DNA of 57,511 nucleotides from Gammaproteobacteria bacterium (GTDB lineage: Bacteria > Pseudomonadota > Gammaproteobacteria > Eutrophobiales > Eutrophobiaceae). The position numbers and the translations under genes are program-made. Under the pieces are notes generated by a model. It ran no database searches and was not told the DNA's origin. It saw nothing but the letters and a program-made list of their open reading frames with translations. This document shows positions 45,048 through 46,966 of this stretch, in pieces. The first letter of the stretch is position 1; every line of letters begins with the position of its first letter. Where the stretch lies: assembly GCA_016193395.1 (NCBI GenBank), contig JACPSH010000004.1, positions 70,549-128,059 of the forward strand, given 5' to 3'.

Positions 45048-45902
45048 CTACGCCGCCGCGATCGCGCCGCGCATCTTGTTGAAGGCGTTCTGTTCCAGTT
45101 GCCGGATACGTTCCGCGGACACGCCGAACTCGTCCGCGAGATCCTGCAACGTCGATTTCTTCTCCACCAGCCAGCGGCGATGGATAATCGTCCTGCTGCG
45201 TTCGTCGAGCAACTCGAGCGCGCTGTGCAGCTTGCCCTGCTTCACGCCCTCGTCCTGATCGTTCTGGATCAGCTCCTCGGGTCCCGCCCCCGAATGTTCG
45301 AGATAGGCAGCCGGCGCAAAGGATTCCTCGTCCGCATCGGCATCCACCGGCGGATCGAAGGAGGTGTCGGTCGCGGTCAGGCGCTGTTCCATGTCGAGCA
45401 CGTCGCGCGCGCTCACGCCGAGGTCCTTCGCCATGGTCTCGACTTCCGCGTGGTTCATCCAGCCGAGGCGCTTCTTCGCCGAACGCAGGTTGAAGAACAG
45501 TTTGCGCTGCGCTTTCGTGGTCGCCACCTTGACGATGCGCCAGTTGCGCAGGACGAATTCGTGGATCTCCGCGCGGATCCAGTGCACGGCGAAGGAGACG
45601 AGCCGCACGCCGATATCGGGGTCGAAGCGCTTCACGGCCTTCATGAGGCCGATGTTTCCTTCCTGGATGAGATCGCCCTGGGCCAGCCCATAGCCGCTGT
45701 AGCCGCGCGCGACCCGTACCACGAAACGCAGGTGCGAAAGCACGAGCTGCCGCGCGGCATCGAGGTCGCCGTGCTGGCGGTAGCGCAAGGCCAGCTCGCG
45801 TTCCTGCTCGGCGCTCAACAACGGCAAGCGATGCACCGCCTGGATGTAGCGGTCGATCGATCCCACCGGCAGGTTCATGGCCAGGGTCAGGTCATTGCTC
45901 AT
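45048..45902 (-). CDS. rpoH: Heat-shock sigma factor RpoH (sigma-32)
   Basis: Directs RNA polymerase to heat-shock promoters. 284 residues, the same length as E. coli RpoH. Region 2 has [40 protein letters not shown] and [20 protein letters not shown]. The RpoH box QRKLFFNLR distinguishes it from RpoD, and region 4.2 has [27 protein letters not shown] lies upstream of the ATG. A CIRCE operator (45936-45962) stands 33 bases before the start, implying HrcA control in addition to post-transcriptional regulation. It is next to the ftsYEX genes as in many gammaproteobacteria. Confidence 0.97.
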
Positions 45903-45935
45903 TCGGATACCCCCTTACGTTCTTGGCTGCCAAGT

Positions 45936-45962
45936 CTAGCACTCTTGCCATTCGAGTGCTAA
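45936..45962 (-). promoter_or_regulatory. CIRCE operator (HrcA site) upstream of rpoH
   Basis: Read on the minus strand: TTAGCACTC, nine bases, GAGTGCTAG. This matches the CIRCE consensus (TTAGCACTC-N9-GAGTGCTAA) at 17 of 18 positions with the exact spacer. It overlaps a possible extended -10 (TGCTAGACT), so HrcA binding would occlude the promoter. hrcA itself is not in this window. Confidence 0.88.
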
Positions 45963-46003
45963 GAACGGGAGAAGTTACGCCAAAACAACGGGTTAGCAAG
46001 GAG

Positions 46004-46966
46004 TCACACCAACCCGCTGTCGCGCAGGTGGCGTTGGACCGCGATCCAGGAGCCGGCCAGGCCAAGCAGCCCGCCGATGCCGATCAGGTACCCGGCGGCG
46101 CCGAAATCCAGCCCAGCCAGGGCAAAGCGGCTGGAATAGAGCTCGGAAAGGCGGAACACCGGCCCGGAGAGGAGGCGGATGGAACCGTTGATCAGCAGCC
46201 AGGCGAGCAGGGCGCCCGCCGCGCCGTGGATGAAGCCGCTATAGAGGAACGGCCGGCGGACGAAAGCGTGGGTCGCGCCGAACAGCAGGTTGATCTCGAT
46301 CTCCGCGCGGCGATTGAAGATGGCGAGCCGGATGGTATTGCCGATAATGAGCAGCACGGCAAGCGCAAGCAGGATCGCCATGATGACGGCTGCGCGTTTG
46401 AGGATCTCCATGATCGCGAACAGGCGCTGCACCCACTGGCGGTCGAACTGGGCCGTGTCCACCTCCGGGATCGCGCGCAGGGCCGCGAGCAGCCGATCGC
46501 CCTGCCCGCCCGACAGCGCTTCCAGATTCGGCTGCACCAGGATCACGGCGGGCAGGGGATTCTCCTCGAGGGTATCGAGCGCATCGCCGAAGCCGGACAT
46601 CTCCCGGTACTCGGCGAGACCCTGCGCGCGGCTCACGTAGCTCACCGCGTCGATCTGCGGATGATCCCGTAGCCGATCGGCAACGGCCTGGGCCTGGAAA
46701 TCATCCAGCTCGAGTTTCAGGAACAGGGTGATCTGCGCGCTGCCGCCCCAGCCGCTCGTGACCCGCTGCGCATTGACGAGCAGCAGGTAGAAACCGGCCG
46801 GCAGCGCGAGCGAGATGCCGATCACGGCGATGGTGAGCAGGCTGCCAATCGGGTTCCGGACCAACTGGCCGACGCTGAAGACGCACGCCTGCGCGTGCTG
46901 GAGGAACCACGCGCGGACCGCGCGGCGCCACTCAATCGGCGAGCGGCGTCTCGTCGGCTGGCCCAT
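46004..46966 (-). CDS. ftsX: FtsX, cell-division ABC transporter permease
   Basis: Four-helix inner-membrane partner of FtsE that relays ATPase cycles to periplasmic cell-wall hydrolase activators. 320 residues. The first helix is NPIGSLLTIAVIGISLALPAGFYLL, followed by a periplasmic domain (about 70-185) and three more helices. The segment RLAIFNRRAEIEINLLFGAT is the cytoplasmic coupling region. It overlaps ftsE by 35 bases at its start. Order ftsY-ftsE-ftsX-rpoH is classical, though the CIRCE site gives rpoH its own control. Confidence 0.95.
   Translation of the reverse strand: MGQPTRRRSPIEWRRAVRAWFLQHAQACVFSVGQLVRNPIGSLLTIAVIGISLALPAGFYLLLVNAQRVTSGWGGSAQITLFLKLELDDFQAQAVADRLRDHPQIDAVSYVSRAQGLAEYREMSGFGDALDTLEENPLPAVILVQPNLEALSGGQGDRLLAALRAIPEVDTAQFDRQWVQRLFAIMEILKRAAVIMAILLALAVLLIIGNTIRLAIFNRRAEIEINLLFGATHAFVRRPFLYSGFIHGAAGALLAWLLINGSIRLLSGPVFRLSELYSSRFALAGLDFGAAGYLIGIGGLLGLAGSWIAVQRHLRDSGLV

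Follow-up and report, generated by a model that had tools for sequence, protein, structure and literature searches.

A predicted HrcA operator overlaps a sigma-E-type promoter in front of rpoH in Gammaproteobacteria

A CIRCE operator of HrcA is found in front of rpoH, the gene of the heat-shock sigma factor sigma-32, in the window, i.e., the whole stretch of 57,511 nt that was analysed, and it overlaps a sigma-E-type promoter. The site probably functions as an HrcA operator and represses rpoH from atop the promoter, with occlusion of sigma-E polymerase as part of the same arrangement. As the sequences are read here, HrcA most likely blocks sigma-E-driven transcription of rpoH until GroEL becomes scarce.

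The rpoH gene (positions 45048..45902, minus strand) has a product of 284 aa that scores 407.6 bits against TIGR02392, whose cut-off is 323.1. Its upstream neighbour is ftsX (46004..46966, minus strand; TIGR00439, 352.8 bits), followed by ftsE and then ftsY, and the intergenic region of 101 bases between rpoH and ftsX contains the operator, at 45936..45962 on the minus strand. The letters at these positions are CTAGCACTCTTGCCATTCGAGTGCTAA. Read in the direction of rpoH, the operator is TTAGCACTC-GAATGGCAA-GAGTGCTAG, which corresponds to TTAGCACTC-N9-GAGTGCTAA at 17 of 18 bases, with a single mismatch and a spacer of exactly 9 bases, as stated in the original prediction. The distance of 33 bases to the sigma-32 start given there is also right, positions 45903-45935 being exactly 33 bases. 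Read-through from ftsYEX could be a source of rpoH mRNA that is independent of the promoter overlapping the operator.

Because the intergenic site has the form of an inverted repeat, it might be taken for a chance palindrome, or for a terminator or RNA element unrelated to HrcA. This is extremely improbable. The operator is the only match to the CIRCE pattern at up to 3 mismatches in the whole window, and no such match appeared in 100 dinucleotide shuffles. In addition, the exact CIRCE letters, beyond what pairing requires, are kept before rpoH in relatives, no T run follows the operator on the rpoH strand, and no Rfam family matches in the window. A chance origin is rejected on the shuffles together with the conservation.

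The hrcA gene is present in the genome as a single copy on another contig (PF01628, 213 bits), where it is the first gene of an operon; the frames that follow are GrpE- and DnaK-like, as read from the translations. A scan of the 2.7-Mb genome with the full pattern at up to 3 mismatches gave only three strong CIRCE sites, all before heat-shock genes: rpoH (17/18), hrcA-grpE-dnaK (17/18) and groESL (16/18; the genes flanking this site were identified from open frames). The reversed pattern, used as a control, had no match in the whole 2.7-Mb genome. Thus an hrcA gene and further CIRCE sites, both of which the original prediction proposed to look for, are present. Two matches to a shorter core, C11:12204, which adjoins a TsaB-like frame, and C16:4508, which overlaps a glnA-like frame (names from translations), are under the full-pattern threshold and were dropped. 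As predicted from its sites, the HrcA regulon of this genome is compact, with rpoH added. The assignment of the rpoH site to CIRCE is based on its pattern, on the presence of hrcA in the genome and on a conserved position at a heat-shock promoter.

To place the operator in a wider context, 80 rpoH loci were gathered by protein similarity, with the operator disregarded; their upstream sequences were scanned and each genome was searched for HrcA. Operator and hrcA are found together in 51 of the 80 loci, and neither is found in 24. Operator-less loci include those of Pseudomonas, Legionella, Shewanella, Aeromonas, Glaciecola, Salinimonas and Methylophaga. Four loci have the operator with no HrcA found, two of them from small assemblies (1.5 and 1.7 Mb) that may be incomplete, and a single locus, that of Nitrococcus mobilis, has hrcA in the genome and no operator at rpoH. 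The association between hrcA and operator gives a Fisher's exact p of ~3e-15 over the 80 loci, a value that treats related genomes as independent and indicates strength only. A second set consisted of 26 rpoH loci from genomes with hrcA in which a stricter motif search had given no match; the operator is present in 23 of them at up to 3 mismatches. The operator upstream of rpoH, whose presence in relatives had been proposed as a check, is therefore found in near and distant relatives, and on this sampling it is, as far as sequence can tell, the usual state of hrcA-bearing Gammaproteobacteria. Neither of the two conditions that the original prediction named as refuting it, a genome devoid of hrcA or an operator missing from all close relatives, applies. 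The hierarchy suggested in the original prediction, with HrcA placed above sigma-32, is well supported by these sequences, but it is not peculiar to the source organism.

Several single loci should also be mentioned. The Nitrococcus mobilis rpoH (L049), without the operator, has GGAACTT-N16-TCGAA and represents a natural control for the gate. A Thiotrichaceae genome (G029) has two rpoH genes (L055 and L040), one with a good operator (1 mismatch) and the other with a decayed one (5 mismatches). At locus L197, the CIRCE-like repeats in front of rpoH seem to be doubled.

The retention of the operator across many genera, and its near-constant absence where hrcA is absent, suggest a selected function. 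This weighs against the view that the operator, though genuine, has almost no effect in practice, with rpoH governed mainly by translation and sigma-32 stability and with HrcA only trimming the basal level. Such a view matches what is generally known of sigma-32 control in E. coli, where mRNA thermosensing, degradation and inhibition by chaperones largely determine the level of the protein. For the genomes considered here it appears quite unlikely, and repression of rpoH by HrcA at the promoter is the preferred reading.

An alignment of the relatives that took the operator as its anchor, instead of the gene, revealed a second conserved element that was absent from the original prediction. In the relatives' rpoH loci this is GGAACTT, at -16 to -10 relative to the operator. 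With at least 5 of its 7 bases it is found at offset -16 in 37 of 54 rpoH operators, compared with a mean of 0.6 at other offsets, and as a -35 box it is found at that offset in none of 20 hrcA operators. Sixteen bases after GGAACTT, the relatives have a -10 partner, TC(T/C/A)AA, made up of the end of the left arm and the start of the spacer. Spacer positions 2 and 3 are A in 36/54 and 43/54 of the rpoH operators, and in 5/20 and 6/20 of the hrcA operators. Over both sets of loci, 49 of 77 rpoH operators have a sigma-E -10 that starts exactly at position +7 of the operator (spacer 15, 16 or 17), against a mean of 1.56 and a maximum of 6 when the upstream 75 bases are shuffled, where these statistics of promoter phase count related genomes as independent. 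The interlock is not universal, since 16 of the 77 operator-bearing loci are without a sigma-E promoter and 12 have one elsewhere. Five further loci have a -10 that stops immediately short of the operator, which would then lie over the start point.

In the window, the sigma-E-type -35 box, at offset -16 relative to the operator, is GTAACTT (45972..45978, minus strand; consensus GGAACTT), and was assigned by alignment and positional conservation. The -10 box is TCGAA (45951..45955, minus strand), 16 bases from the -35, assigned by its positional conservation in relatives; it takes two bases from the end of the operator's left arm and the other three from the beginning of the spacer. Each box is one base off the best consensus. 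Taken alone the match is unremarkable, and the promoter is thus identified by its position relative to the operator, not by its own score. Its assignment to the sigma-E class also draws on the -35/N16/-10 form and on an RpoE equivalog in the source genome (TIGR02939, 299.7 bits, above the cut-off), both of which were found. The rpoH transcript would be expected to start at about 45942-45948, near the centre of the operator, in which case no more than roughly one arm of the palindrome would be part of the mRNA. The original prediction described two circuits joined at this site. The link between HrcA and sigma-32 is supported by sequence; however, a third circuit, that of envelope stress, would enter by way of the overlapping sigma-E-type promoter.

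The operator arms may also provide an overlapping sigma-70-like promoter, which would be weaker and secondary and is less certain. Its possible -35 is TTAGCA, in the left arm (45957-45962, minus strand), and its possible extended -10 box is TGCTAGACT, in the right arm (45933..45941, minus strand; TGCTAAAAT in relatives). If this were the promoter proper, HrcA would still control rpoH, but through an ordinary sigma-70 promoter made of arm boxes (TTAGCA/TTGGCA and TGCTAAAAT), and the sigma-E match would be incidental, with no envelope-stress input. The base preferences at rpoH sites fit this: of 54 sites, 49 have T at operator position 29 and 35 have A at position 28, which give TAAAAT or TAAACT after TGC. 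The 16 operator sites devoid of a sigma-E promoter fit it as well. However, GGAACTT keeps sharply to one offset and is missing from the hrcA operators, and the box remains in some genomes that have no operator. A sigma-70 promoter as the only one is accordingly judged unlikely, though it retains some weight, and the sigma-E promoter overlapped by the operator is the reading followed below.

In an even sample of the class, comprising 369 genomes, 151 genomes (115 of 272 genera) have a joint motif of operator and sigma-E promoter. The reversed joint pattern, used as a control, had no match in the 369. In all 30 loci inspected, rpoH is directly downstream of the motif. HrcA is present in 146 of the 151 genomes with the joint motif; among the remaining class genomes, 122 have HrcA without the strict motif and 96 have neither. 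All three other sampled genomes of the source's own family carry the motif. In one genome (G379, contig C4, 2949-3007), joint-motif matches overlap on both strands. A sample of 398 genomes from the phylum gave 13 matches, all within the class, and none in genomes of other classes.

The Xanthomonadaceae-type rpoH operators (L220-L225, L227-L229 and L237; locus position 1501) have the form TTAGCAGTC-N9-GACTGCTAA, with both arms changed in most. Their left arm has CAGTC, whereas the groESL operators of the same genomes are mixed, with CACTC or CAGTC, and a wholesale change of HrcA specificity in the family is therefore unsupported. The C-to-G change in the left arm makes the -10 read GTCCAA, which is closer to GTCTAA, the sigma-E -10 consensus. 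No CIRCE was found within the fetched flanks of Xanthomonadaceae-type hrcA genes (L127, L132, L133, L134, L136, L137 and L139). To judge from these flanks, HrcA of this type may leave its own operon unrepressed, even though operators are retained at rpoH and groESL.

The proposed mechanism is one in which we infer HrcA binding, sigma-E dependence, occlusion, GroEL titration and an AND-like output. Polymerase with sigma-E (RpoE) would recognise two boxes: GTAACTT, which lies 10-16 bases before the operator, and the -10, which lies within it. HrcA would be active as long as GroEL is abundant, and the bound dimer would cover the -10 and the start point of rpoH. Unfolded protein would tie up GroEL, and HrcA would then lose DNA binding; such titration of HrcA by GroEL is known for Bacillus subtilis. 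Release of HrcA would free groESL, hrcA-grpE-dnaK and rpoH together. Transcription of rpoH would then be strong provided that envelope stress has likewise set sigma-E free; a basal start from sigma-70 is possible. HrcA would thus gate entry into the sigma-32 regulon.

The textbook heat-shock circuit is that of E. coli, which is without HrcA; in our search E. coli served as a control genome, and hrcA was not found in it. If the reading given here is true, the usual circuit of hrcA-bearing Gammaproteobacteria has, above sigma-32, a repressor that senses chaperones and that is physically interlocked with the envelope-stress sigma factor at rpoH, such that full transcription of rpoH needs a cytoplasmic chaperone shortage and envelope stress together. 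The model is a testable prediction of how three stress circuits combine.

In E. coli, sigma-E drives the P3 promoter of rpoH, and RpoE has GGAACTT as its -35 box (PMC8103513). In E. coli K-12, TGAACTT-N16-TCTGA is found between ftsX and rpoH, without CIRCE. P3 thus has the same N16 spacing and the same ftsX-rpoH location as the promoter of the window, but no operator lies over it. GGAACTT-N16-TCNNA also precedes rpoH in several genomes devoid of both operator and hrcA, e.g., Pseudomonas, Methylophaga and Aliidiomarina. On the simplest reading of these comparisons, the sigma-E promoter persists as the stable component, and the overlaid operator disappears when hrcA is lost. There is about an even chance that the wider scheme is right, in which Gammaproteobacteria that keep hrcA have a single stretch of DNA serving as sigma-E promoter and HrcA operator, a two-input gate for rpoH, and in which loss of hrcA, e.g., in Pseudomonas and the enterics, took the gate with it and left E. 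coli with P3. P3 would then be a remnant of the gate after the operator vanished along with hrcA.

The operator and the repressor family are the same as those of the Bacillus subtilis-type HrcA/CIRCE system. The targets there are chaperone genes (groESL and hrcA-dnaK), whereas here they also include a master sigma factor, and the rpoH operator differs from a classical CIRCE in carrying part of a sigma-E-type promoter. For Geobacter sulfurreducens, Rodionov et al. (2004; PMC545781) predicted a CIRCE at rpoH; in that genome a perfect CIRCE lies 51 bases before rpoH, other sites are at groESL and hrcA-grpE-dnaK-dnaJ, and the profiles derive from Permina and Gelfand 2003. The three HrcA targets reported there are the same as in the source genome. 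The work of Permina and Gelfand 2003 on the beta-, gamma- and epsilon-proteobacteria may already include CIRCE-rpoH cases from the gamma group. Geobacter sulfurreducens differs in being a delta-proteobacterium, and the passages of the 2004 paper on this CIRCE describe no sigma-E promoter with it (PMC545781). Since the phylum sample had no joint motif outside the class, the Geobacter CIRCE would be either an independent case or one with a different architecture. That paper was the only report of a CIRCE at rpoH found in a full-text literature search, and no description of an interlock between CIRCE and a sigma-E promoter at rpoH was found in searchable papers. Thus the HrcA-rpoH circuit had already been predicted, and the overlap with the sigma-E promoter appears to be the new part.
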